From: Ligilactobacillus salivarius DSM 20555 = ATCC 11741
Lineage (GTDB): Bacteria > Bacillota > Bacilli > Lactobacillales > Lactobacillaceae
Assembly: GCF_001435955.1 (NCBI RefSeq)
Contig: NZ_AYYT01000014.1
Span: 1 to 49,445, forward strand
Reading direction: 5' to 3'
DNA length: 49,445 nucleotides
Shown: piece by piece, positions 9,305 to 33,590 of the stretch
How positions within the stretch are numbered: position 1 is the stretch's first letter
Layout: each line of letters begins with the position of its first letter
Notes under the pieces: model-generated
The model's input: only the letters and a program-made list of their open reading frames with translations
Told to the model about the DNA's origin: nothing
The model's database searches: none
Translations under genes and position numbers: made by a program

Positions 9305-11671
9305 ATGTCAACCTCTATTGGAGTTAGAAAATTAGTTGAATTTATCCTGAAAAAAGGAAATTTAACATCTAATACTAATTCACAAAATACTGCTTTAGAT
9401 GGGATCAACATTCATCAACGATTACAGAAAAAATTCTCTAATGATACAAAATCGGAAATTGCTTTGAAAAAAGAATTAGACATTGATGGTGAAACTTGGA
9501 TTATTCATGGAAGAGCTGATGGAATTAAATATATCGATGACCGACCACAACAAGTTATCGAAATAAAAACTTCTAGTCCTGAATTTTCAGAATTAGCTCC
9601 TAATACTCTCGAACTTTATTGGGCTCAAGCTAAAATTTACGCTCATATAATTATGGAACAAGAGCAACTGCCAGAATTATCTCTTAAATTGATTTATGTA
9701 CAAACTACTGATAATACAATTTCTGAAGAAACTCAGGTTATTAGTCAAACTGATGCTCAAAATTTCTTTGACAACATTATTGCGGAATTTACAAATTGGA
9801 TAAAACTTCAGCATCAACTCCAAAAAGAACGCGATCATTCTATTAACAAATTGGATTTTCCATTTTCATCTTATAGGAAAAATCAACATGAATTTGCTGC
9901 TGCAGTTTATAAAACAATAGCTTTAAATAAAAAATTATTAGTTGAAGCCCCTACTGGAACTGGGAAAACTATTTCAACTATTTTTCCTGCAGTCAAGGCT
10001 TTAGGTACTAAAAAATGTCAAAAAATATTCTACTTAACTGCTAAACAAAGCACTCGTAAAGTAGCTGAAGAAACTTTACAGTTATTGGTAAAACATGGAC
10101 TTTCTATTACTGCAATTACCCTAACTTCTAAAGAGCAAATTACATTTCCTGAAGAATTAGATTTGGCAGACGATGAAAATCCTTATTACTTGGGTTATTA
10201 TGATCGCCTACGACCAGCTTTGATAGATATTTTAACCAATGAAAAAGTGATTACCCGGAAAATTGTGGAAAATTATGCTAAGAAACATATGCTTGATCCT
10301 TTTGAATTTTCTCTAGATATTAGTAATTCTTGTGATGTAGTAATATGCGATTATAACTACCTTTTTGATCCTTTAGTTAAGTTACAACGATTCTTTACAG
10401 AAAGAAACTATGATTATACTTTTTTGTTAGATGAAGCTCATAATCTAGTTAGTCGTTCTCGAGATATGTATACTAAAGAAATTTCTTCACAACAAATCAA
10501 GGATTTATTAGACAAACTCCAAACGCTGCCACATCCACCCCAAAAGATTGTGGATAAGCTAAATACTCTTTTAAATGATTTTGATTTGATTAAGGAACCC
10601 TTAGTTAATTATCAACAAGCTGACGTAATAATTGAGGAAAAACTTGCCTCACTGACAAAAAAAATAATGTATTTTTGTGATTTTACTACTGATTGGCTGG
10701 CAGAAAACCCACATTTTTCTCTTAAAGATGACTTACTGGAATTTTTCTTCGCCGCTTATGCCTTTGTTAAGATTAGTGATTATTACAATAATAGCTTTAG
10801 AACACATTTATTTATTACTGAAAATTCTGAGTTACTAATTAGGGTGTTTTGCTTAGATTCTAGTGAATTGATTGCTAATAGTCTTAACTTGGGAGGTAGT
10901 GCTGTTCTTTTTTCAGCGACTTTGTCACCATTAAATTACTACCAAGAAATGTTTGGATTAATTGATAACAGTTTGTTATACCAGCTATCCTCATCTTTCG
11001 ATGAAAGTAATCTTAACTTGTTAATAACATCTTATATTCCTGTTACTTATCAACAAAGGCAGCAAAGTCTTGGAAAAATTATTGATGCTATTCACACTAT
11101 GATTGCTACTAAGCAAGGGAATTATCTGATTTTCTTACCATCTTATACTTTTTTGAAGCAGGTAGTTGTGGCATTTAATCAAGCTTATCCACATATTGAC
11201 ACTGTAATTCAAGAAAACGATATGACTAGAGAACAACAGGAAGATTTTTTGAATTATTTCGTTGAAAATCCAACTAAAATTTTAGTCGGTTTTGCTGTAT
11301 TAGGTGGTAGTTTTTCAGAAGGAATTGATTTAAAAGGTAATCGTCTAAGCGGTGTAGCAATAGTTAGTGTGGGACTTCCAAAATTAAGTAAAGAAACTAA
11401 TGAACTCCAAAATTACTTCAATAATAAACAAAAAGATGGATTTCAATATGCTTATCAACTTCCTGGACTTAATAATATTTTCCAGGCTGCTGGTCGTGTT
11501 ATCCGAAGTTCTACTGATGTAGGTGTAGTCCTTTTAATAGACAATCGTTTTGCTACTTCTAGATATGCGAAATTTTTCCCACCACATTGGAAATATGCAC
11601 AGATTATTCACAATCAATATAAACTTGAACAAAACTTATCTACATTTTGGAATAAAAATAAAGACAGCTAA
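9305..11671 (+). CDS. PD-(D/E)XK nuclease fused to DinG/XPD-like superfamily 2 helicase
   Basis: A 788-residue protein with two parts. Residues ~1-170 resemble a RecB/Cas4-type nuclease: Asp72 in GRADGI, and Glu86 and Lys88 in VIEIKTSS form a D...ExK site. Residues ~185-780 are a DinG/XPD-like helicase with Walker A APTGTGKT (215-222), DEAH (376-379), SATLSP and C-terminal QAAGRVIRS. In relatives known to me four cysteines between Walker A and DEAH hold a 4Fe-4S cluster. Here the matching segment (~280-335, with GYYDR and DPFEFSLD) has none, so the cluster appears lost. The start ATG has AAAGGAGG seven bases upstream. The gene is monocistronic and ends in a terminator that includes its stop codon. 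Probable role: DNA repair or processing; substrate unknown. Confidence 0.8.
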   Translation: MSTSIGVRKLVEFILKKGNLTSNTNSQNTALDGINIHQRLQKKFSNDTKSEIALKKELDIDGETWIIHGRADGIKYIDDRPQQVIEIKTSSPEFSELAPNTLELYWAQAKIYAHIIMEQEQLPELSLKLIYVQTTDNTISEETQVISQTDAQNFFDNIIAEFTNWIKLQHQLQKERDHSINKLDFPFSSYRKNQHEFAAAVYKTIALNKKLLVEAPTGTGKTISTIFPAVKALGTKKCQKIFYLTAKQSTRKVAEETLQLLVKHGLSITAITLTSKEQITFPEELDLADDENPYYLGYYDRLRPALIDILTNEKVITRKIVENYAKKHMLDPFEFSLDISNSCDVVICDYNYLFDPLVKLQRFFTERNYDYTFLLDEAHNLVSRSRDMYTKEISSQQIKDLLDKLQTLPHPPQKIVDKLNTLLNDFDLIKEPLVNYQQADVIIEEKLASLTKKIMYFCDFTTDWLAENPHFSLKDDLLEFFFAAYAFVKISDYYNNSFRTHLFITENSELLIRVFCLDSSELIANSLNLGGSAVLFSATLSPLNYYQEMFGLIDNSLLYQLSSSFDESNLNLLITSYIPVTYQQRQQSLGKIIDAIHTMIATKQGNYLIFLPSYTFLKQVVVAFNQAYPHIDTVIQENDMTREQQEDFLNYFVENPTKILVGFAVLGGSFSEGIDLKGNRLSGVAIVSVGLPKLSKETNELQNYFNNKQKDGFQYAYQLPGLNNIFQAAGRVIRSSTDVGVVLLIDNRFATSRYAKFFPPHWKYAQIIHNQYKLEQNLSTFWNKNKDS

Positions 11672-21085: not shown

Positions 21086-21100
21086 AGGATGAAATTAACC

Positions 21101-21922
21101 ATGAGTAAAATTAAAATGATCGCAACTGATATCGACGGAACACTAGTTGATGACGCTAAAAATCTTTCACCTAAGACAATCGAAGTCTTAAAAAAAGCAA
21201 GAGCTAATGGTATTTATGTTGTCTTATGTACAGGTCGTCCATTAAGTGGTGTCGCTAATCTCCTAACTCAATTAGGTCTGGATAATGACGACAATTTCGT
21301 AATTACACATAATGGTGCCCAAGCTGTTAGTGCTAAATCTGGTAAAGCTATTTTCAAACATTTATTAGACTTTTCTGATTTCAAACGTCTTGACGCTATT
21401 AGTAAGGAATTAAAAGTTAATATGCAGACAATTACTACTGATTCTCAATTATTTGTTACTTCTCCTGATATTAACTATTATTCTGTTTTAGATACTTTCT
21501 ATACTCATATGCAACTTAGGTATCGTCCTGTAACAGAAGTACCTAAAGATATCGAAATTGCTAAAATTATGTGGGCCGATTATCCAGAAAATATCGATAA
21601 TGCCCTACCTAACTTGCCTAAAGATTTGCTAGATAAATTTGATTGCATCCGTAGCGAAAAATGGTTCTTTGAATTTATGAATCCTCTAGCTACAAAAGGA
21701 AATGCAGCTATCGAATTAGGAAAGCATTTAGGCATTGATGCTAGCGAAATTTTAACTGCCGGTGACCAAAATAATGATCTTTCTATGATTGAAAAAGGTG
21801 GATTTAGTATCGCGATGGGAAATGCGATTGATACAATTAAAGAAAAAGCTGATTATGTCACTGATACTAACAACAATGATGGTTTAGCTAAAGCTATTGA
21901 AAAATTTGTTTTTGAAGATTAA
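21101..21922 (+). CDS. Cof-type HAD-IIB sugar/phosphate phosphatase
   Basis: A cytoplasmic HAD phosphatase of 273 residues. Motif I is TDIDGTLVDD (both catalytic Asp), motif II is CTGRPLSG, motif III includes ATKGNA, and motif IV is AGDQNNDLSMI. A C2B cap lies between residues ~85 and 190. Such enzymes dephosphorylate sugar phosphates or nucleotides with loose specificity. The start at 21101 has AAGGA eleven bases upstream; an earlier ATG at 21089 overlaps that ribosome binding site. Probably cotranscribed with the HD protein gene. Confidence 0.9.
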   Translation: MSKIKMIATDIDGTLVDDAKNLSPKTIEVLKKARANGIYVVLCTGRPLSGVANLLTQLGLDNDDNFVITHNGAQAVSAKSGKAIFKHLLDFSDFKRLDAISKELKVNMQTITTDSQLFVTSPDINYYSVLDTFYTHMQLRYRPVTEVPKDIEIAKIMWADYPENIDNALPNLPKDLLDKFDCIRSEKWFFEFMNPLATKGNAAIELGKHLGIDASEILTAGDQNNDLSMIEKGGFSIAMGNAIDTIKEKADYVTDTNNNDGLAKAIEKFVFED

Positions 21923-22982: not shown

Positions 22983-23678
22983 TTAAAATTTATAATTTAT
23001 ATCATCGTATTTAGTATCACTTTGTTGGTTAGCTAAATCTTCGCTTGGATAATAAACATAATCTGTAAGATCGTTTGCCCCAAAACCGTAAAGAACAAGT
23101 GGTACTTTTTGTCCGTCAATTTCTTCTTCATGTGCAAAGAAATGTTCACCACCGCCTTGAAGTTGATACCAGCCTCTCATGCTGATACCATTAGTGCCTA
23201 TATTACCAGCACTTCTCCATTCTTCCTTACTTTGACGTTCAGATTCGCTGACATCAGAAGGCGTATCTTTAGTTCTCTTATATAAAACAGCATGGTTTGT
23301 TTCGCCATCTGCACTAATAAGTGTAATCTCATGTTCAGAAATCACTAATTTTTTCATTCCATCTTCGCCTTTAGAATACCATGTTCCTCTCATCGCTTCT
23401 GGTGTAGTCACATAACCTCCACGATCTTCTCCTAGATCTTCAGAACTTTGAGTACTGCTACTTGATGATACTTCAGATGACAAACTAGATGATGAACTTT
23501 CTTTTTCACTTGATGATTCTTTCTTCTTTTCAGAATGTTTCTTCTTACTTGAAGAACTCTTTACTAATTCTGCTTTAGAACTAGCACTTGACTTGTGTTC
23601 ACTAGAATTTGAACTACAACCAGTTAAAATCAATAAAGTACTTAAAGCTGCAAAAATAACCCATATGGTCTTTTTCAT
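22983..23678 (-). CDS. Predicted lipoprotein, paralogue of the adjacent DUF4767 lipoprotein
   Basis: A 231-residue lipoprotein: N-terminal signal with lipobox LTGC (Cys21), then a Ser/Lys/Glu-rich linker of ~60 residues, and a C-terminal domain of ~140 residues starting EDLGEDRGGYVTTPEAMRGTWYS. This domain is shared almost word for word with the lipoprotein encoded upstream (GGYVTTPEAMRGTWYS, MKKLVISEHEIT, VYYPSEDLANQQ). It lacks the DUF4767 domain present in that paralogue. The two genes are 18 bases apart and evidently arose by duplication. Surface location is expected; function unknown. Confidence 0.8.
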   Translation of the reverse strand: MKKTIWVIFAALSTLLILTGCSSNSSEHKSSASSKAELVKSSSSKKKHSEKKKESSSEKESSSSSLSSEVSSSSSTQSSEDLGEDRGGYVTTPEAMRGTWYSKGEDGMKKLVISEHEITLISADGETNHAVLYKRTKDTPSDVSESERQSKEEWRSAGNIGTNGISMRGWYQLQGGGEHFFAHEEEIDGQKVPLVLYGFGANDLTDYVYYPSEDLANQQSDTKYDDINYKF

Positions 23679-23696
23679 TAATCTTCCCCATCCTTT

Positions 23697-24788
23697 TTAT
23701 TGGTAATATAAATCTTCGTATTTAGTATCACCTTGTTGGTTGGCTAAATCTTCACTTGGATAATAAACAGAAAATGTCCAATATCCAGCTCCACCACCTT
23801 CAACAACAACTGGAACCTTATTGCCATTTATTTCTTCTGTATGTGCAGCGTAATCTGCCCCTGCACCAGCTGTTTGGAACCATCCTAAAACATTAATATA
23901 TTGCAATCCATGTATATTTACGTAGCGTGCATCGCCCCATTCCATTTTATCCTTAACTTCTTCTTCACTTACATTGTCAGGAGTTGGAATTGTTTTCTTA
24001 TATAGGATCGTCCGGCCACTTTGCCCATTTGAATCAGTATATGTAATCTCATGTTCAGAAATCACTAATTTTTTCATTCCATATTCACTTTTAGAATACC
24101 ATGTTCCTCTCATCGCTTCCGGTGTAGTTACGTATCCCCCACGTCCTTCACCTAAATCTTCTGTTGCTTTAGTCGAACTCGAACTTTTTGCACTACTACT
24201 TGATGATACTTTTGGCTTTTCAACATGAGTAGCTTTACCATCAAAGATGTTCACGAAATTTTCTTTAAGTGATTTATTCTTAGTTTCACTCCAGTTATTC
24301 CCACTACCCTCATTTACTAAAACAATAGGTTCACCATCAGCTAAAGTAAATGCATAAGTTATACTAGAACTTGAAGATTTATTGTAGTTATAGATGGCTA
24401 CAACATTGTAATCATTTTTACCTGTTCCTTTTTTATCCCATGCCATTGAAATATTTTGTCCATTTACTGTAGCACTATTAAAATCTTGAGGATAATTCAT
24501 TCCTGAAGCCGTTTGAATATTATTGGTTCCATCATACTTTGTGTAGGTTTGGTTCATGACCTCTCCCCATTGTTTCATAAAATCTTCTAGGTGGCTGTCC
24601 TTATCGTTATTCCATAAAGAACCTGATTTCTTCTTAGCTACACCTTTTTGACTTTTCTTACTTGATGATTGTTTAACAACTTTAACCTTAGAAGTTACAT
24701 TTGACTTCTTACTAGAATTAGATCCACAACCAGTCAATATGAGTAATGAACTTAGTATGACTGAACTAATGATAGTGAGTTTTTTCAT
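23697..24788 (-). CDS. DUF4767 domain lipoprotein
   Basis: A 363-residue lipoprotein. Signal peptide with lipobox LTGC (Cys20), Ser/Lys-rich linker, a DUF4767-like domain (LWNNDKDSHLEDFMKQWGE, then YTKYDGTNN) and, after a second Ser-rich linker, the C-terminal domain shared with its neighbour (DLGEGRGGYVTTPEAMRGTWY). The start is ATG 24788 (MKKLTIISSV): AAAGGA precedes it, and an extended -10 promoter at 24823-24831 lies upstream, which makes the longer in-frame start at 24845 unlikely. The gene is therefore probably transcribed apart from the operon that ends at 24842, although read-through is possible. Confidence 0.82.
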   Translation of the reverse strand: MKKLTIISSVILSSLLILTGCGSNSSKKSNVTSKVKVVKQSSSKKSQKGVAKKKSGSLWNNDKDSHLEDFMKQWGEVMNQTYTKYDGTNNIQTASGMNYPQDFNSATVNGQNISMAWDKKGTGKNDYNVVAIYNYNKSSSSSITYAFTLADGEPIVLVNEGSGNNWSETKNKSLKENFVNIFDGKATHVEKPKVSSSSSAKSSSSTKATEDLGEGRGGYVTTPEAMRGTWYSKSEYGMKKLVISEHEITYTDSNGQSGRTILYKKTIPTPDNVSEEEVKDKMEWGDARYVNIHGLQYINVLGWFQTAGAGADYAAHTEEINGNKVPVVVEGGGAGYWTFSVYYPSEDLANQQGDTKYEDLYYQ

Positions 24789-24841: not shown

Positions 24842-27457
24842 TCACTCTGTCTCTAATTTTTTAATATCAACAATCTGCCACAGTAGTTTATTTTTCTTTT
24901 GCTTAATCTTTTGGGTTACCTTCACTTTATCATCATTTTGTAAATGATATTCTTCAACCATCCATGCTGGGATACGTTTATTTTCATAATCTGTCACAAT
25001 GAGATCTCTATTATCCCAAGGATCCAAACCTTGCTTATAAACACCCTCATAATTTTGGATAAACTTCACTTTAAATGTATAATCTGTAGTTTCTTCTACA
25101 TCGCCCACCAATTCAAAGCGTGGTTTCATTCCAGCTTTTTTCACTTTCTTAGGTACCAATCTAGCGAAATAACATTCATATAAGCTTATTTTTTTCAGCA
25201 ATTCTTCGTCAATAATAATTCCTTCAACTTTTTCGCCATTTTTGTCTAAAACAATAATATCAATAAATTTCTTTCCATCCGAACCAGCAACATAGAAATT
25301 ACGCTTTTCTATTTTTTCATTGAATTTCTGCTCAATCATCTTAGTAAATTTACGATAAAATTTCTGGTTACTTTCAGGCAATTGAGTTTCTACATACCAA
25401 GGAAGATTTTCAAACTTAGCCTTATATTCTTTGTCCTTAATCTTAGATAATTCAAACTTAATTGGACCATAGTATTCTGAATTTTTAGCTGCGATTAAAT
25501 ATTCTATAATTTCTTTTCTAACTTCATCGCTATCACCTTTAGTCTTTAGGAATTCAAATAAAGCTGCTATTCTAAGCTCATTATCATCTTTTACAAAATC
25601 TGCATAAGCTTTCCAGAGCCAACTATTACCTCTATCAGTTACCAAGAATTTATCGAATGCTTTACCAGTTTCTTCATCAAAGTCATGATCCAATAAAATC
25701 TTGCAATAATAATATCCAATCCATTTATTTCCCTTATAATTTTCAAAAACTATACTACCTAATTTATCGATAATAACTTGTACTTGTTGTTGAGTTAGAG
25801 AAGCAGATTTTTCTTTAGCTAATTTCAAGAATATCCTTAAAAACTCTCCAACAGCTTTATTACTAGTATAAACTTTCCTCACTTCAGAAAGTTTCTCTAG
25901 CCATAAATCCAAACTCGCTAAAATATCCGTATTTGTTCTTGATACTGCTGCATAATAACTACTCAATAATTTTGCAAAGTCGCTTGGATAAGGGCGAGAG
26001 GGATCATCAGGATTCTCTACTTCTTTAAAGTTCTCAACTACAAATGACTCATCATTCGATAGTACCCAAGTCATTAATCTGAGGTATTCTTTAGGGTTGC
26101 TGATATTAAACTTAGTAATTACTAAAGCCTTGTTAAATTCTGTGACTCTATTTTCAAAGATTGTTACTGGCAATTCAGCTATTAATGTATCTGTTAAATT
26201 CTCTAATTCCTTAGAAGTAGTTTTATACACGAGATAGATTACATTCTCACCAATACTTTCACGTACCAAGTCATCGTTATATGATAACTGTTCCTTTTTC
26301 TTCAAAAAGCTACCATATTCTTGAATTAAATGTTTTTTATCTTGCCTATATTCCACATATCCATAAATTCGAATAAAATCATTAATCAAGTTCTTGCCAT
26401 AATGTCCTCTATATTCTCGTAATCTTTTCGTCTTCTCCAAAGCAAAGATTTCAAGCACTACCTTTAAGTATCTTTCTATACTATCTGATCTATTACATAG
26501 TGATTTTGCGTAGCCTTGCATAATCTGGATAATTTTACTTGCATACTCTTTGTCTTCCATCACATTTTTAGTAGGCGACAAATAGGCATCGGGTATTTTG
26601 CTGAAATCTAATACTTTTTCTACTAGATAAATATATCCATTTTCTCTCTTAGTAATCTCAGCTTTATTATTACCTAATTGATAATATTTAACCTGTGATA
26701 AAACCTGAATCAACTCAAATGGTGTTTCAGAAAAATGTTCTCTATCTATTTCTCTAACAACCAACTTGCAACATCTATCAATTGCTGCATAATCTTTTGA
26801 TTTATATTTTTCCCAAATGACCGCTGTTAACATTATTCCTAGGACTTTACCCATATAAATATAGTTATCTTTATACTTTGAATAGAAATTCAAAACTTCA
26901 TTCATAATAGTTTGGATATCAGCATGTAAAAAATGCTCACTTCTTACATAACAGCTTACTAAATCGCCTAAAAAGCCACTTATCCCTACCATTTGATTTT
27001 TTCCGGAATAATAGTTATCGGTACTTGCTAATTTGCTATCCCAATCAGCTAGATTAAATTCTTGATTTACAAAAAATGTAAATGAGGTTGTTACTAACTC
27101 ATGTAATTCATCCCATTTTTCTTGCTTACTAAGTTCCCAAGCTTTTCTCATTATTTGTGCTTGTGTGAGTTTTATATACAATGAGAAATATCCAATTTCA
27201 TAATCATCAGAGAATATAGTCTTTTGAATCTCGTAGTTTTCTTGAACAATTCTCATGTATTTCGTAAATTCGCTGTCAGCTTTTAGAAAATCATACAATA
27301 CCCATACCGCAGATGCAGTTACATCTAAGTTGTTTTGCTGTGCCAATTTACATACATTGTAAGCTTCCACTAGCCTACCATCTTTTCTAAAAAAACTAAT
27401 CGCATCATTTAATCCATCAACATCGCGAACTGCTATCATTTTTTCAACATCATTCAT
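24842..27457 (-). CDS. Operon gene E: large helical-repeat protein with possible OB-like C-terminus
   Basis: Unrecognised protein of 871 residues, the last of five coupled genes. The first ~680 residues are rich in amphipathic helices of TPR/HEAT-like character (for example EAYNVCKLAQQNN near the start), without a catalytic motif that I can name. The last ~180 residues turn beta-rich: FIDIIVLDKNGEKVEG, YTFKVKFIQNYEGVYK, and IPAWMVEEYHLQNDDKVKV resemble the layout of a small OB or cold-shock-like fold. No signal peptide or membrane segment. The start is placed at ATG 27457, with AGAGGA about ten bases upstream, overlapping the end of gene D by 8 nt; a GTG at 27466 is too close to that site. 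Probably a scaffold or nucleic-acid-binding partner of the helicase D. Function unknown. Confidence 0.7.
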   Translation of the reverse strand: MNDVEKMIAVRDVDGLNDAISFFRKDGRLVEAYNVCKLAQQNNLDVTASAVWVLYDFLKADSEFTKYMRIVQENYEIQKTIFSDDYEIGYFSLYIKLTQAQIMRKAWELSKQEKWDELHELVTTSFTFFVNQEFNLADWDSKLASTDNYYSGKNQMVGISGFLGDLVSCYVRSEHFLHADIQTIMNEVLNFYSKYKDNYIYMGKVLGIMLTAVIWEKYKSKDYAAIDRCCKLVVREIDREHFSETPFELIQVLSQVKYYQLGNNKAEITKRENGYIYLVEKVLDFSKIPDAYLSPTKNVMEDKEYASKIIQIMQGYAKSLCNRSDSIERYLKVVLEIFALEKTKRLREYRGHYGKNLINDFIRIYGYVEYRQDKKHLIQEYGSFLKKKEQLSYNDDLVRESIGENVIYLVYKTTSKELENLTDTLIAELPVTIFENRVTEFNKALVITKFNISNPKEYLRLMTWVLSNDESFVVENFKEVENPDDPSRPYPSDFAKLLSSYYAAVSRTNTDILASLDLWLEKLSEVRKVYTSNKAVGEFLRIFLKLAKEKSASLTQQQVQVIIDKLGSIVFENYKGNKWIGYYYCKILLDHDFDEETGKAFDKFLVTDRGNSWLWKAYADFVKDDNELRIAALFEFLKTKGDSDEVRKEIIEYLIAAKNSEYYGPIKFELSKIKDKEYKAKFENLPWYVETQLPESNQKFYRKFTKMIEQKFNEKIEKRNFYVAGSDGKKFIDIIVLDKNGEKVEGIIIDEELLKKISLYECYFARLVPKKVKKAGMKPRFELVGDVEETTDYTFKVKFIQNYEGVYKQGLDPWDNRDLIVTDYENKRIPAWMVEEYHLQNDDKVKVTQKIKQKKNKLLWQIVDIKKLETE

Positions 27458-29462
27458 TGTCCGCACTTCCTCTAAAATTTGGATTTATCTTCTTAAATTC
27501 TGCCCCAATCAACTCTAATTTATCAGCTATTTCTACCTTGCTACGAAGTGTTGCTTTAGTCCAAAATTTTCGACTATTATAATATGCTTGCATGACATAG
27601 TTGTTATTTTCAACATCACTTAGATAAATCAAAACAAAATATTGTTTTTCAAAATTTCTATCATCAATATTAGTAACAACTAAACCATTATTTTCAGAAA
27701 TTTCTTCCACCTTATCTACTAAGCGAGCAATCTTTTCATCATTAAATTGATACTCTTCAATCTTAGTTGCCGTTTCTCTTTCTTTTTCAAGATTCTTCTT
27801 TTTGCCAATAAATTCATTTGAGATATCAAAGTTACCAAATAAACTAGTTGCGTTAAATACTAATACATTCTTTATCGCTCTTGATAAAGCTGTATAAGTC
27901 CAACGTAAACTAGATTCATCTAATCCATTTCTGTCAGTAAAATCTACATATACATCATTCCATTCATTTCCTTGAACTTTATGACCGGTCATCGCATAAG
28001 CATATTTCACTTGGATACTATTATAAAATTTATCCTGATAAATCTTGTCTAGTAGTTGATATCTTTCACATTCATTTTTAGGATCACAAATCGGATGTTT
28101 TCTCAAAAGTTCTCTTATCCTATCCTTATCTGATACAGATAATCCACTTTCTCCAACATTTGCCAATTTCTTTATGGCTGTTTCCCAGTATTCATTATTA
28201 CTTTTAATATGACGACAATGTTCTTCTGGAGTTTCTGTAATTCCCATACGTTCTTCAGCATCGTAAAACAGTGCTGTCCTCTCATCTGATGAAAGTTGAG
28301 AATCATCTGAATTTAGAACATTTTCTAATAAGTAGCTCACATACTCTTTTCCTGTTCGTTCCAAACGATATTTAACCTTTACATAAGACAAAGTTACATC
28401 TTGGTTATTAACTCTTACATTACTTGACTTTCGATCATAGGTTGCGATTATTTCCGCAATATCTCCAGTGAAAAAGTCCTCATTAAACTCATTACCTGCA
28501 GCATCCATTACAAGTAAATCATATTGATTTTTAGAAAAGACTACTAAATCACCACTACTAATCGGCGCATCTTCCATATTTTGAAGTTTTCTACGGATCA
28601 ATTTATTATATTCTTGGGCTGCCCTAGTTGAATAAGTTACTACTACCTTATTTCTCTTATTGTCACGATTAAATTGCCCAGCAATCTTTTGTTTCTTTTC
28701 TTCCTTACTCCAATCAGCTTCATCAATATTTCTAACATTACCAGTATTTTTAAATTCATAAGGTATTATTTTTTGATGATTTTCTACACTAGTAATCAAT
28801 TCAGCATATTTATCTATACCTCTAGCTAGTTCCCCATGCATACGATACTGAGTTTTCAATTCGTATTTCATAGTATTTAAGCCTAACTCTTCAAAATAAG
28901 TTTGCTTTAAAGCCTTAGCACTAGTATCTCTAATTGGTAATAATCGATATTCATCTCCAATAAATATTATTTTGACATTACCTTTTTCAAAAATTTGAGT
29001 AGAAGTCAATAAGTCCGTTAATAGTTTTCCAGAACCAAAGTGTAAGTTTCCCTTATTACTTTCTTCATCAGAAATGTAAGAAGCATCGTCTATAATAAAA
29101 ATATTCTTATCTTCTTGTTTGTTCAATTTGAAATCAAATATCAAATTATCTCCATCATCAATCTTTTTTGTTGCTCTTCGATAGATTTTACGATAGATCG
29201 TTTGACAATCTTGTTCTGGAATTTGAGGAAATTTTTGTTTAATTAGACCTACAGATTGACCCGTAGGAGATAGGATCTGTGCTTGGGAATATTCAGACCC
29301 ATTATTCTTATTTGCTAATTCATAAATTTTTCCAGCCAAAGTCGACTTTCCACTACCAGCTCGTCCAGATACTATTAATACCTGTGTATTACTCTTTAAA
29401 AAATTCTCTACTACTTGCAACGCTTCTTTTTCAAATTTCTCGTTATCCATAGTTTCACTCAT
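27450..29462 (-). CDS. Operon gene D: superfamily 1 RecD/Dda-like helicase
   Basis: A 670-residue SF1 helicase. Walker A is GRAGSGKS (33-40); motif II is IIDDAS (123-128), with Asp126 where DEAS proteins have the catalytic Glu; motif III GDEYRLLP (169-176), motif IV QYRMH (205-209), motif Va MTGHKVQG (491-498) and motif VI TYTALSRA (522-529). This set matches the RecD2/Dda/DUF2075-like branch. Residues ~330-480 form an insertion, and the last ~110 residues hold an extra beta-rich domain (YFVLIYLSD, NYVMQAYYNSRKFWTK). It overlaps gene C by 8 nt and gene E by 8 nt. It should translocate on DNA or RNA; the substrate and its link to the proteolytic partners are inference. Confidence 0.82.
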   Translation of the reverse strand: MSETMDNEKFEKEALQVVENFLKSNTQVLIVSGRAGSGKSTLAGKIYELANKNNGSEYSQAQILSPTGQSVGLIKQKFPQIPEQDCQTIYRKIYRRATKKIDDGDNLIFDFKLNKQEDKNIFIIDDASYISDEESNKGNLHFGSGKLLTDLLTSTQIFEKGNVKIIFIGDEYRLLPIRDTSAKALKQTYFEELGLNTMKYELKTQYRMHGELARGIDKYAELITSVENHQKIIPYEFKNTGNVRNIDEADWSKEEKKQKIAGQFNRDNKRNKVVVTYSTRAAQEYNKLIRRKLQNMEDAPISSGDLVVFSKNQYDLLVMDAAGNEFNEDFFTGDIAEIIATYDRKSSNVRVNNQDVTLSYVKVKYRLERTGKEYVSYLLENVLNSDDSQLSSDERTALFYDAEERMGITETPEEHCRHIKSNNEYWETAIKKLANVGESGLSVSDKDRIRELLRKHPICDPKNECERYQLLDKIYQDKFYNSIQVKYAYAMTGHKVQGNEWNDVYVDFTDRNGLDESSLRWTYTALSRAIKNVLVFNATSLFGNFDISNEFIGKKKNLEKERETATKIEEYQFNDEKIARLVDKVEEISENNGLVVTNIDDRNFEKQYFVLIYLSDVENNNYVMQAYYNSRKFWTKATLRSKVEIADKLELIGAEFKKINPNFRGSADNE

Positions 29463-30750
29463 TTCTCTTTACGATTTTCTCAGCACTTTTTATTTGCTGA
29501 TTTATCCATTCTTTAAATGATATCTCATCTTTTGAATCTTCATCACCTTGCTTTTCTTCTCTATTAACAACTTTTTCAGCTAAACTTATTTGCTTTTCTA
29601 TCCACTCGTCAAATGTTAATTCAGGCTCATCTGAAATTCTAGGCTTCTTTAAGTTGTGAACTGTTCTTTCTTCACTCGTAACTTTTAACTCTATATCTCG
29701 TACATTTTTCCCTTTTTGCACCCAAGATACTTTACCATTACTTGCAATAGTTAAAACATCAATGCTCCCACCTACTGTTTGATCATTGTCAAAAAAGTTA
29801 CACCTAATCATAGTAGCTAAAACTAATTGTTTAGCAAAATTAGCCACCTTATCTAAGGTTAAACCATTAATGTATGCTCGATAAAATTTGTTATAGTAAT
29901 TATCAACTGTTCTTTGAAATGCTTTTGTTATTTCAACAGTATCCGTACCTTGATATTTCATATACAACTTATCATAAAAGGTATCGCTAACTTTTCTATC
30001 CACACCTAACAATAAAGCATCGGCACCATCACTTTGGGCAAATTTGTATAAATTACTATAATTAGGAAAACTTGATATTTCCTTTATTGAGAAAATTTTA
30101 CTATCTAAAACACCATATAATTCACTATTCCATAATGAACAATAATTTTCTTTCTTGCCTTTTCCTGCTAATACAATTCCTGTCGTATAAAAATTGGATA
30201 CAGTTTGACTAACTAGCATATAATACGCATACTCTAGTTCTTCAGTCGTATACTTATTATCTTCACTAATCAAAAATTGACTCATTCGATCTTGATTCAT
30301 GAATTTCTGAAACTCTTGAAAAGTATAAGGTATTTTTTCTTCTTGAATTTCTTTTTTTACTTCAATCAGATTTCCTAATAAATCTTGAGTTTTGTAGGTG
30401 CTATGTAAGTTGTTCAATATATCTTCTAGTTTCTGCTTAATATATTGCTCATATTCTCTGTTTGCTGATTTAATCAAATATTCCTTAAACAACTGAACGT
30501 ATTCTGTAAATTTATTTAATGGCTCTTCACCTAAGTATTGGTTAAACCCTTCAACAATTGATTGTATTTTTTGACCATTGATTGTAGCATTTCCATAAAA
30601 CATAATAACTACACTATGCTTCAATGATAACTTAAAAATTTTTTGCCCAGTTATATAATATTTTCGGGAGCTATGGTCTTGCATTGTTAGACTACTATCA
30701 GCAGCCAGAACTACTCCATAACCATTTGTTATTCCTAATTCCGCAGTCAT
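29455..30750 (-). CDS. Operon gene C: proteasome beta-like Ntn hydrolase, predicted active
   Basis: A 431-residue protein whose N-terminus matches proteasome beta/HslV subunits. It begins Met-Thr, and Met removal would expose Thr1. Asp lies at mature position 17 (VVLAADSSLT), exactly the proteasome spacing; Lys37 in TGQKIFKLS aligns with Lys33. Asp323 followed by GGSIDVLTI (327-335) matches the Asp166...GGxIDVxxI strand of beta subunits, and GIVLAGKG...LYGV (191-214) matches the central strands. A helical insertion (~75-185) makes it longer than the usual ~200 residues. The C-terminus carries two copies of a 22-residue motif (377-398 and 409-430). The ATG has AGGGGG seven bases upstream, so the Met-Thr start is well supported. 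Assignment is by motif only; peptidase activity is inferred. Confidence 0.78.
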   Translation of the reverse strand: MTAELGITNGYGVVLAADSSLTMQDHSSRKYYITGQKIFKLSLKHSVVIMFYGNATINGQKIQSIVEGFNQYLGEEPLNKFTEYVQLFKEYLIKSANREYEQYIKQKLEDILNNLHSTYKTQDLLGNLIEVKKEIQEEKIPYTFQEFQKFMNQDRMSQFLISEDNKYTTEELEYAYYMLVSQTVSNFYTTGIVLAGKGKKENYCSLWNSELYGVLDSKIFSIKEISSFPNYSNLYKFAQSDGADALLLGVDRKVSDTFYDKLYMKYQGTDTVEITKAFQRTVDNYYNKFYRAYINGLTLDKVANFAKQLVLATMIRCNFFDNDQTVGGSIDVLTIASNGKVSWVQKGKNVRDIELKVTSEERTVHNLKKPRISDEPELTFDEWIEKQISLAEKVVNREEKQGDEDSKDEISFKEWINQQIKSAEKIVKRNE

Positions 30751-30753
30751 AGT

Positions 30754-32361
30754 CTAACCCCCTATTTGCCAATTAACGCTATCTCTTAGGACTTCATTAA
30801 ACAATCTATTTCTAGGAAATTGTGGATGCTTAGCACAATAACTCAATTGCTTTTCTATCAATTTTTGAGCATAATTTCTTGCCCAACGTGCATTAGATTT
30901 TTTATCATCTGGAATTTGATCATACAGATTAATTGCTACTGCTTTTACATATTTTTCATTAAACTCTATTTTGTTCTTCTTTAAAATGTTAACCACTATT
31001 TGAGCTACAACCTGGGGCTTATATGATTCAAAAATTATTTTATGTTGGAATCTGGAAGCCAATCCTGGATCAAATTTCAAAAATTCTTCCATTTCTTTAG
31101 TATATCCTGCAATAATTGCGATAAACTTTTCTCCGTCATTTTCTAGTCGAGGTACAAAAGCCTGAATAACTTGTTTTCCTTTGTCATAAGGATCCTCTTT
31201 ATTATAAAGTTGATGAGCTTCATCAATGAAAAGTACTCCACCTAAAGCAGAATCTACTTTTTCATTGATTTTTCCACTTAAATCGCCAACCCATTTACCT
31301 TCTAATTCATTACGTTTAGTTTCAATTACAGTTGTATTTTCTAAAATACCTAGTGCATAGAATAAACGTGCAACTATTCTAGCAACCGTCGTTTTACCAG
31401 TTCCAGGTGGTCCTTCAAAAATCATATGATGTCTTCTGGATAATTCCATATTTCCAATATTTGCCTGTGAAACTTCCACTGCCTCACAAATCTCATGAAT
31501 TTGTTGTTTCACATTATTCAATCCTTGTAGACTATCTAATTCATCCAAGATTTGCTTAACTAGCTTAGGATTATATACACTTGTGGCATCTAAGATGGAT
31601 TTCTTATCAATTACATTCGACATTCTGCTGTTTTTAGCAAAACTATTTAATATCTTTTTATTAAAACGTTCAACAACACGCTTGGTCAAATGCTTGCTTT
31701 TTTGCACATATGACTTTAATACATTTCCATATAAAATATCATCTTCTAAACTTAGACCTTGATTATATAGGAGACTCTTGCCATAATTGATAGCTTCTTC
31801 AATTGTCAAATCTCTAATTACAAAATAATTAGTAAGATTGTTTTTCACTTCTTCTAAAGAATTTATATAGCTAATATTTTCTTCTGTATCTTCTAACAAG
31901 ATTATTTTTTGACTGTCAGATCTTTCAAGTATCCCCATTATATAGTTTTTATAATCGATCTTATATCCACGTCTATCTTCAGGTAAATCTCCACCAAAGG
32001 CAGACTTAGCATCTTGAATTATTATGAATGCATTATTTTCTACACTTTCCAGATATTCATACTGATCAGGCATAATATAAGTTTTATCCCCAAAACTAGG
32101 GTTGAGTACCTTAATGAGTTTATATAAGATGTCTAAAAAGACTTCTGATTGTTCTTTTCCATTAGAAACTAAACAAATATTTATATCTATACTTTGAGAA
32201 ACACTACTATTGCTAAACTTATGAATTACCTTATTTAAATAATCAATAACTTCGTCTCTCAAATTATTATCGGAATATTCATTATTAAAAGCCTCTATAT
32301 ATTTTGTCGTATATGGATATATACTGCAGAACATTCTTTGTTTTTCCGTCATTTTTTCCAT
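30754..32361 (-). CDS. Operon gene B: CbxX/CfxQ-type AAA+ ATPase with degenerate N-terminal AAA-like domain
   Basis: A 535-residue AAA+ protein. The second domain (~265-535) is of CbxX/CfxQ/SpoVK type: Walker A GPPGTGKT (317-324), pore-region EGKWVGDLSGK, Walker B GGVLFIDEAH (374-383), sensor 1 in IIAGYTKEMEEF, arginine finger in PGLASRF, and sensor 2 region NARWARNYAQK. The first ~240 residues look like a second AAA-fold domain that lost its nucleotide site: ICLVSNGKEQ stands at the Walker A position, NAFIIIQDAKS at Walker B and KIILLEDTEE at sensor 1. ATP-driven unfolding or remodelling is the likely role. Start ATG shares one base with the stop of gene A (TAATG). There is no HbYX motif at the C-terminus, which ends NWQIGG. 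Confidence 0.85.
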   Translation of the reverse strand: MEKMTEKQRMFCSIYPYTTKYIEAFNNEYSDNNLRDEVIDYLNKVIHKFSNSSVSQSIDINICLVSNGKEQSEVFLDILYKLIKVLNPSFGDKTYIMPDQYEYLESVENNAFIIIQDAKSAFGGDLPEDRRGYKIDYKNYIMGILERSDSQKIILLEDTEENISYINSLEEVKNNLTNYFVIRDLTIEEAINYGKSLLYNQGLSLEDDILYGNVLKSYVQKSKHLTKRVVERFNKKILNSFAKNSRMSNVIDKKSILDATSVYNPKLVKQILDELDSLQGLNNVKQQIHEICEAVEVSQANIGNMELSRRHHMIFEGPPGTGKTTVARIVARLFYALGILENTTVIETKRNELEGKWVGDLSGKINEKVDSALGGVLFIDEAHQLYNKEDPYDKGKQVIQAFVPRLENDGEKFIAIIAGYTKEMEEFLKFDPGLASRFQHKIIFESYKPQVVAQIVVNILKKNKIEFNEKYVKAVAINLYDQIPDDKKSNARWARNYAQKLIEKQLSYCAKHPQFPRNRLFNEVLRDSVNWQIGG

Positions 32362-33386
32362 TAATTGTTCACCCCTAACTCTTTTTCTATTACTATCGGT
32401 TCATCTAATAAAGAAAATTTTACTAGCTTTACTTTATTTGCTTGTAAATCTTCCCCTACCTGTGCTATTTCTAACTGGCGATGTATCCCATATACATTGA
32501 ATAAAAAATCACTGATATCATCTAAACTCTTATTTCTTAAAATTTCTTGTGAGATATTATATTCATTTTGAGCAATTTCAGATAATGAACTTGTAGCTTG
32601 TAATAGATTAGGATTATTACTATTATTCAAATTCCAGTAAAAATCATCCATAAAAGTTTGAGAAATACCACCAATCATAATTTCAGTCGCTTCAGATTTT
32701 TCAAGATTGATAATACCCTTACCTATCTGTTGAACACTAGATAATAATTTATTATTTTCTGTTACTCCATATAATCTATAACTTGTTGCACTAATACTGG
32801 TTTCGTCATTGCCCACACCTACAAGACAAATTCCCATATAATCTTGCAAATTCTTTCTAGGATATAAATAGGTATCCTTAACAATTTCAACTAATTTATT
32901 AAAACTTTCTTGATCAATGGAGATTTGATTTTGATTTAAAAAATTAACTAGTTCATTAATCAAAATTGGAGTGGCTTCTTCATTTACTTGTCTATCAATT
33001 GATAATGTACTATATATTCGGTTAATATTTTCGACCAAACTTTGTATTCCGCCATTTATAGTTAGGTTATTTAAAACTGTCCAAATTATTCTTTGAATAT
33101 AAAGATCTTTTCTATAGTTATCTTTTAAACTTCTTAGATATTCTTCAAATCTAAGTATACATTCTTTAAACGTGGCTATTGGTTGGTTAACTCTCATCTG
33201 AAATCCTTTTATCAGACTGTCCCAAACTAATCCATCTAATTCATATTTTCCAAAAGAAACTAAGTATATTTTGGCTTCTTTGTTTAATTGAATTATTTTA
33301 TGTTCAGCTTTATTTCGTTTAGTATCAATATTATCAACTATAATAACTGCCCCTTCATCTTTAGTAACAATTGTTGAATACGCCAT
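32361..33386 (-). CDS. Operon gene A: proteasome beta-like paralogue, predicted inactive
   Basis: A 341-residue protein, distant paralogue of gene C. Its N-terminus MAYSTIVTKDEGAVIIVDN lines up with that of C without gaps: Asp18 corresponds to the catalytic Asp17 after Met removal, but residue 1 is Ala, not Thr, Ser or Cys. A Lys (Lys30, HKIIQL) stands near the Lys33 position. Shared central segments are GICLVGVGNDE (C has GIVLAGKGKKE) and LYGV. The Asp...GGxIDV strand of C is missing. It is probably a catalytically dead ring partner, as in alpha or inactive beta subunits. The start is ATG 33386 with AGGA ten bases upstream; an in-frame GTG at 33395 overlaps that site. First gene of the operon. 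Confidence 0.68.
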   Translation of the reverse strand: MAYSTIVTKDEGAVIIVDNIDTKRNKAEHKIIQLNKEAKIYLVSFGKYELDGLVWDSLIKGFQMRVNQPIATFKECILRFEEYLRSLKDNYRKDLYIQRIIWTVLNNLTINGGIQSLVENINRIYSTLSIDRQVNEEATPILINELVNFLNQNQISIDQESFNKLVEIVKDTYLYPRKNLQDYMGICLVGVGNDETSISATSYRLYGVTENNKLLSSVQQIGKGIINLEKSEATEIMIGGISQTFMDDFYWNLNNSNNPNLLQATSSLSEIAQNEYNISQEILRNKSLDDISDFLFNVYGIHRQLEIAQVGEDLQANKVKLVKFSLLDEPIVIEKELGVNN

Positions 33387-33411
33387 AATTATCACATCCT
33401 GTCCATATAAA

Positions 33412-33456
33412 AAAGCATAAAACTAGATAAGAAAACCCCATCTAATTTTATGCTTT
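33412..33456 (-). terminator. Hairpin with T-run in the leader of the five-gene operon (attenuator candidate)
   Basis: On the minus strand AAAGCATAAAATTAGAT and ATCTAGTTTTATGCTTT form a 17-bp stem (one G-T pair) with an 11-base loop, followed directly by a T-run, 26 bases before the first gene. It lies downstream of the operon's promoter, so it can act as attenuator; it also stops read-through from the YibE/F genes. Confidence 0.75.
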
Positions 33457-33468
33457 ACTTACTATTCG

Positions 33469-33590
33469 ATTTTCTTATCGTATAACTTAGAGTAGACTCT
33501 TCATTTTTATATAATTTCAGCATCTGATTAATGCTAATTAACTGTACTAACTTAGTTCAAATTCTACTCTTGATAAGAAAATTTTGTCAA
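33469..33590 (-). promoter_or_regulatory. Promoter and structured leader of the five-gene operon
   Basis: On the minus strand TTGACA (33585-33590) and TAGAAT (33561-33566) with an 18-bp spacer form a near-consensus promoter, giving a leader of ~170 bases. ATTTTCTTATC plus AGAGTAGA around the promoter (33563-33582) recur inverted at 33469-33496 as TCTACTCT and GATAAGAAAAT. A third copy of TTTTCTTATC lies in the loop of the terminator hairpin (33426-33435), so the middle copy GATAAGAAAA could pair with it. Confidence 0.6.

Follow-up and report, generated by a model that had tools for sequence, protein, structure and literature searches.

In a 49,445-nucleotide stretch of the Ligilactobacillus salivarius DSM 20555 genome (contig NZ_AYYT01000014.1; hereafter the window), five real genes, which we call A to E, lie tightly packed on the minus strand between positions 24842 and 33395. 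In the order of transcription, gene A (32361–33395) encodes a diverged, degenerate paralogue of the product of gene C; gene B (30754–32361) a AAA+ ATPase of the CbxX/SpoVK/EccA type; gene C (29455–30750) a member of phrog_5990, a proteasome-like N-terminal nucleophile (Ntn) hydrolase family; gene D (27450–29462) a superfamily 1 (SF1) helicase of the TOTE / PDC-M16A type; and gene E (24842–27466) a large helical protein of the PDC-M16B type. A and B overlap by 1 nt, B and C are 3 nt apart, C and D overlap by 8 nt, and D and E overlap by 17 nt from the GTG start of E or by 8 nt from the ATG at 27457. The 1-nt overlap of A and B, the 8-nt overlap of C and D and the 3-nt gap suggest translational coupling. 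Ahead of A lies one good sigma-70-like promoter site, TTGACA and TAGAAT with an 18-nt spacer (33561–33590, minus strand), which is called by consensus only (11 of 12 matches), promoter-like sites being no more frequent in the region than in shuffled sequence (50 found against a mean of 59). Between this site and A is a 20-pair hairpin followed by a run of T (33412–33456, minus strand), which by its sequence may either terminate yibF or act in the leader in the manner of an attenuator; terminator-like sites, too, do not exceed shuffles (2 found against a mean of 2.5). A scan of 19 window proteins gave the genes around the operon either ordinary identities or no assignment; examples are YibE/F-like proteins, a DUF4767 lipoprotein, Rho, CTP synthase and GlmU; the gene at 21089–21922 encodes a HAD phosphatase. 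An initial annotation of this DNA had described five closely spaced genes on one strand, behind a single promoter and between ordinary housekeeping genes, and the layout agrees with it.

D matches the PADLOC model PDC-M16A with an E value of 2.2e-82 and gene E matches PDC-M16B at 2.4e-12, giving more specific identities to what had been annotated as an SF1 helicase and a helical protein. Gene E also contains a DUF7017 domain (residues 581–709; 25340–25726, minus strand) that scores above the family cut-off at 4.9e-20. Near its C terminus, D has a TBP-TOTE-like stretch (residues 581–648; 27519–27722, minus strand), which a profile built from relatives finds at 6e-6, with 0.035 for the best other open reading frame of the window; this region is shorter than in the relatives, where two such stretches appear. 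In the relatives scanned, TBP-TOTE exceeds its cut-off in five of five D proteins and DUF7017 in six of six E proteins, and at least one S1CSD-TOTE domain does so in five of those six, the locus L038 being the exception. No TPR motifs were called in gene E of the present locus. The acronym TOTE stands for TPR, OB, TBP and Effector and is credited to a 2022 paper in a later study, which describes these domains as parts of conflict systems (PMC12458937); in the accessible part of the PADLOC paper, PDC-M16 is not explained. By its domain matches, the D–E pair is the core of a TOTE-type conflict system, the PADLOC candidate PDC-M16AB. We also considered D as a plain RecD2 helicase (NCBIfam, 1.8e-13); the PDC-M16A match and the TBP stretch rule this out.

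Gene C matches phrog_5990 at 3.7e-33. Members of this family begin with M-T-A-E. Of 35 aligned rows, 34 represent proteins other than A, and these have Thr (32 rows) or Ser (2 rows) at position 2; Asp18 is present in 34 of the 35 rows and Lys37 in all 35. Thr2, Asp18 and Lys37 correspond to the proteasome triad, numbered Thr1 (or Ser) for the nucleophile, Asp17 and Lys33, and the codon at 30745–30747 (minus strand) is predicted from the alignment to specify an N-terminal nucleophile once the initiating Met is removed. When the family profile was compared with 177,635 PDB sequences, the best matches were archaeal proteasome beta chains, with weak E values of 0.016–0.022; Thr2 aligned with the first Thr, Lys37 with Lys33, and GG.IDV with GG.IDV. 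With its insertions removed, the family also aligned in register with HslV over residues 1–26 counted from Thr1 (0.0065, against 0.18–0.35 for three controls); adding further PF00227 genes contributed little, and we give this comparison little weight because the choice of what to remove followed from the hypothesis. C is predicted to be a proteasome-like Ntn hydrolase with Thr2 as its catalytic residue, the fold assignment drawing on weak scores. It is not the HslV of this genome, since an HslV-type gene sits elsewhere (G000:C45), and at 431 residues it is far longer than HslV, which spans 173–177 residues from Thr1. Its tail carries two copies of a 23-residue motif (residues 377–399, 29554–29622; residues 409–431, 29458–29526; both minus strand). 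None of 2000 shuffles gave an equally good pair, in a test that split the shuffles at every second place and the real tail at every place, and the two-copy tail is missing from the other aligned family members.

A is related to C beyond chance (3.7e-14), matches the C family by hhalign (97%, 1.8e-11) and reaches phrog_5990 itself at 3.8e-5. Its start is likely the ATG at 33386, because an AGGA precedes that codon by 10 nt but the GTG at 33395 by only 1 nt. From the ATG the protein reads M-A-Y-S, with Ala in place of the Thr nucleophile; from the GTG the alignment has a gap at the nucleophile position. The C-terminal GG.xDV motif is missing and the Asp18 column holds Glu, position 18 counted from the ATG being Asp. 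By sequence A is predicted to be catalytically dead, so that A and C would pair one inactive with one active subunit. Proteasome-beta features had initially been ascribed to both proteins: they are intact in C, and in A the homology stands without the nucleophile or the GG.xDV motif. A recent duplication with A and C as sisters was not sustained, since the tree cannot place them and joins the two longest branches, possibly by artefact.

The C-terminal half of B is a AAA+ domain close to SpoVK, EccA and CbbX (1e-42 to 3e-53), as the annotation of a CbxX-type ATPase had it. Its scores of 146–180 bits against equivalog cut-offs of 423–467 make it a member of the superfamily rather than an equivalog, and the type is that of CbxX, not of an HslU-like partner. 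Walker A (GPPGTGKT), Walker B (FIDEAH) and a G-L-A-S-R-F finger are kept, as is a pore loop, K-W-V-G (residues 356–359; 31285–31296, minus strand), whose role we carry over from other AAA+ unfoldases; an aromatic-hydrophobic-glycine pore loop is a feature of such enzymes. Residues 111–247 (31621–32031, minus strand) are probably a degenerate first AAA domain lacking Walker A: by hhalign they align in register with the Walker B-to-lid part of the protein's own AAA domain and of its relatives (P 4e-4, probability 36%), which suggests that this first domain is dead.

We then considered where the locus lies and how widely its parts are distributed. In one relative (L311) the genes that flank the locus are only about 80 bp apart, judged by their aligned ends, indicating that the locus occupies a variable site, and the DNA beyond yibF varies among the 10 genus members compared. 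A profile of the C family found no member in the 25 other genomes of the genus, whereas 14 of the 15 other genus members examined carry a PF00227 gene of the HslV type. This contrast bears on the possibility that A–E form a housekeeping or stress proteostasis operon with no role in defence. Such an operon would suit a chromosomal-looking site between ordinary genes, and a comparison of the 19 window proteins with Pfam or NCBIfam recognised no phage gene; with the C family absent from the other genus members where HslV is nearly constant, and with TOTE domains described as parts of conflict systems, we regard it as highly improbable.

Genes related to C are scattered thinly. Beyond the genus search, where the genomes searched are samples of larger groups, C is present in 4 of 294 other genomes of the order, as single genes at 34–37%, and in 1 of 298 others of the phylum. 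D was found in none of 298 other genomes of the phylum at E ≤1e-10, and gene E in none of 150 others of the family; DUF7017 occurs in 7 of 397 other genomes of the class, three of which hold clear D–E pairs. Further C homologues were met on nine plasmid records (five from Rhizobium, the others from Enterococcus, Pantoea, Ruegeria and Hyphomicrobiales) and in 13 phage records, nine of them from Streptococcus. In the Streptococcus satellite phages MK448509 and MK448354 and the phages MK448832 and MK449008, the C-family gene stands at the very end of the record, a usual site of cargo or defence genes, and in some other phage records it does not. On three Rhizobium plasmids (L017:12001-13242, L018:12001-13074, L020:5274-6515) it lies three small genes away from a multiubiquitin / ThiF / ClpP-type set, which hints, in three of three annotated loci, that the C family and a ubiquitin-like system may be connected. 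B matches 268 plasmid records, none over 80% of its length, and C-family and D/E-type genes are absent from the four of these inspected (H44, H54, H53 and H40). Searches with single sequences gave no result for C and B in viral contigs or for E and A in plasmids.

To see which genes accompany D–E elsewhere, we collected pairs from 80 genome loci (the best 80 of 445, of which 13 have an E-type gene and the rest apparently mostly a shorter helicase), 77 viral loci, plasmid loci and Bacillota genomes. This gave 25 distinct pairs besides the present one, after leaving out L021, L022 and L194, which are this locus itself, L191-L193, which cover the same places as L199-L201, L195/L202, which have an E-like gene without D, and three genomes with weak DUF7017 matches (G905, G1031 and G825). 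The sequence available for the 25 contains no A- or C-family gene and, at E ≤1e-10, no B-like gene, and for 21 of them it reaches 4 kb or more beyond D on the side where A–B–C would be expected; weak B-type matches in L038 (5e-6) and L092 (3e-5) were counted as general AAA+ similarity. One D–E (PDC-M16) pair, L026:8200-12560, carries a DUF4145 N-terminal extension and lies near stbA on an IncR plasmid; D-like genes occur on 69 plasmid records in all, including 23 from Klebsiella and 23 from Escherichia, among which L026 alone was opened. The converse search covered 93 other C-family loci, some nearly identical, comprising 80 viral contigs (the best 80 of 105) and 13 genome or plasmid loci, with the short duplicates L002-L005 and L011/L012 left out.

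The initial annotation had treated the five genes as one set expected to travel together, and the co-occurrence search speaks largely against that part of it: all 25 other D–E pairs lack A-, B- and C-like genes, and all 93 other C-family loci lack B, D and E, so that the modules occur separately and their union is seen only here. These counts, and the differences among the 10 genus members in the DNA beyond yibF, would also be expected if two unrelated defence modules, the TOTE pair D–E and a proteasome-like cargo A–B–C, had by chance come under one promoter in an insertion hotspot, each acting independently. Against this, the 1- and 8-nt overlaps and the 3-nt gap suggest translational coupling, and A–B–C is known only here, joined to D–E; on balance we judge a chance neighbourhood unlikely, although it is the strongest of the alternatives we considered.

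In at least 4 of the 25 other pairs a reverse transcriptase (RT) gene lies ahead of D and is read in the same direction (L024:3824-12517, L025:3876-12547, L038:5047-13707 and L045:1794-7818), a count that is a minimum, upstream genes having been scanned in a minority of the pairs. Three of these loci (L024, L025 and L038) also contain a response regulator; L038 has in addition a HisKin-conflict domain, from a conflict-type histidine kinase, and its last upstream gene overlaps D. The RT modules ahead of D lead us to read the genes in this position as an exchangeable module, represented here by A–B–C.

Taken together, these observations lead us to favour, tentatively and with a little less than even confidence, a TOTE-type conflict system, probably anti-phage, in which the effector module is an ATP-dependent proteasome-like protease formed by A, B and C. 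The tight gene spacing and single good promoter-like site argue for a common unit; the PDC-M16A/B, TBP-TOTE and DUF7017 matches for a TOTE core; the Thr or Ser at position 2 and the archaeal proteasome beta chains as best PDB match for a peptidase; and the Walker motifs and W-V-G loop of B for an unfoldase. The absence of the C family from all 25 other genus members and the short interval in L311 likewise speak for this reading. From these data we infer that A–B–C would serve D–E as an effector, with the complex formation, proteolysis, sensing, defence and B–C partnership that this entails. With the helicase, the TBP-like stretch and the DUF7017/OB-like parts, D and E might bind nucleic acid or nucleoprotein that is foreign or aberrant. 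Such binding could license B, as a hexamer, to unfold a target protein and feed it into a compartment built of catalytic C and of A, the latter having a structural or gating part like that of alpha to beta subunits; B might dock through the two-copy tail of C. The N-terminal Thr of C would then cleave and so destroy the target, which may belong to the phage or be a host protein that, once lost, brings infection to a halt. In its full form, with nucleic-acid sensing by the TOTE core switching on an ATP-fuelled proteasome-like protease of independently evolved active and inactive subunits as an anti-phage defence, the proposal is possible and somewhat less secure than the general reading. Of the initial suggestion of an ATP-dependent protease tied to a nucleic-acid complex, perhaps in phage defence, the link to defence gains from the PADLOC candidate models and TOTE-type domains matched by D and E, and its extension to a conserved five-gene system is not supported.

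Several results weigh against the TOTE–protease reading. On the side of the peptidase, neither piece of the archaeal-beta alignment is significant by itself, C has no match to Pfam Proteasome PF00227, and that model matches 5 of 12 C-family members at E ≤0.1 (best 8.4e-5) and 2 of 35 at E ≤0.01; compared with HslV by hhalign, the whole family was negative, with an E value of 0.055 and in the wrong register. B ends in QIGG and has no HbYX docking motif. In the core, D scores 1.9e-5 and 24.6 bits against Pfam TBP-TOTE, just below the cut-off of 27, and two of its helicase motifs are altered relative to 10 of 10 relatives (motif II, E126 to D; motif III, Q173 to R), so that its ATPase may be altered; gene E as a whole matches the profile of its relatives at 8.8e-13 with a large composition correction, and no S1CSD-TOTE (OB) domain was detected at its end (profile of relatives, 0.5). 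As to context, the five-gene set was met in one instance only, most other D–E pairs have no tightly coupled upstream gene, and none of the 93 other C-family loci matches B, D or E, 62 of them with at least 2 kb on both sides. Nor does the C family have a conserved neighbour, no family within four genes recurring in more than 5 of 38 loci, and in the same 38 loci a few C-family genes lie within 25 nt of a same-strand open frame. The study of Fuchs et al. 2021, which reports 22 new proteasome-like families, likewise notes no co-occurring AAA+ partners and no telling gene context for such homologues (PMC8665760).

The lack of a recurring neighbour raises another possibility, that C is not processive and performs one specific cleavage or ligation, as a connectase or the single-gene prophage members might, with B remodelling A–C or D–E; CbbX, for instance, is a Rubisco remodeller. 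The length of C relative to HslV points the same way, as does the study of Fuchs et al. 2021, in which connectase is a ligase and insertions in such homologues may block ring stacking (PMC8665760). A AAA+ protein with a pore loop beside an active/inactive pair is the usual anatomy of an ATP-dependent protease, and we hold the non-processive alternative to be rather unlikely, slightly more so than a chance pairing of modules.

We compared the operon with the systems that it most resembles. Like other TOTE / PDC-M16AB loci, it has an SF1 helicase with a C-terminal TBP-like stretch followed directly by a helical DUF7017 protein; it differs in the proteasome-like, AAA+ and proteasome-like genes ahead of D, in the changed helicase motifs II and III and in the unrecognisable OB/S1CSD end of gene E, a trait shared with one of six relatives (L038). 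C is probably of the PMI-4 type of Fuchs et al., to judge from its insertions and its phage and wide phylum distribution; the Thr/Asp/Lys triad, the long insertions and the prophage occurrence are common to C and the homologues described there, whereas C is paired with a dead paralogue and a AAA+ protein in one operon and has the added two-copy tail. HslUV and the 20S proteasome with PAN/Mpa likewise combine a AAA+ protein with a Thr protease, and the active/inactive pair recalls beta and alpha subunits; here, however, the ATPase is of the CbxX/SpoVK type and lacks the HbYX end, and the genome has an HslV-type gene elsewhere. With CbbX, SpoVK and EccA, B shares the C-terminal AAA domain, and it differs from them in its N-terminal half, probably a dead AAA domain, and in its operon context.

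The locus is therefore a single case, in which the TOTE core is already known and the union of A–B–C with D–E has been met only here. In the open-access literature searched we found no description of the five-gene set, in line with the initial annotation, and a word search of the DefensePredictor paper turned up neither proteasome, Ntn, protease nor TOTE. To one family of insertion-bearing proteasome homologues the operon offers a possible unfoldase, an inactive partner subunit and a controller linked to nucleic acid, so that the function of these proteins becomes open to test in a single expression construct. If the TOTE–protease reading is correct, B would be, within that literature, the first AAA+ partner known for such homologues and the locus the first TOTE system with a compartmental protease as effector; if the system is anti-phage, regulated proteasome-like proteolysis would join the effectors of TOTE-type systems.

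Two further features of the window lie outside the operon. At 9305–11671 is a gene for a 788-residue helicase related to rad3/YoaA/DinG, with scores far under the equivalog cut-offs. At 22983–24788 are two neighbouring lipoprotein genes whose products have a similar C-terminal region (GRGGYVTTPEAMRGTWYSK...), the longer one also containing DUF4767.

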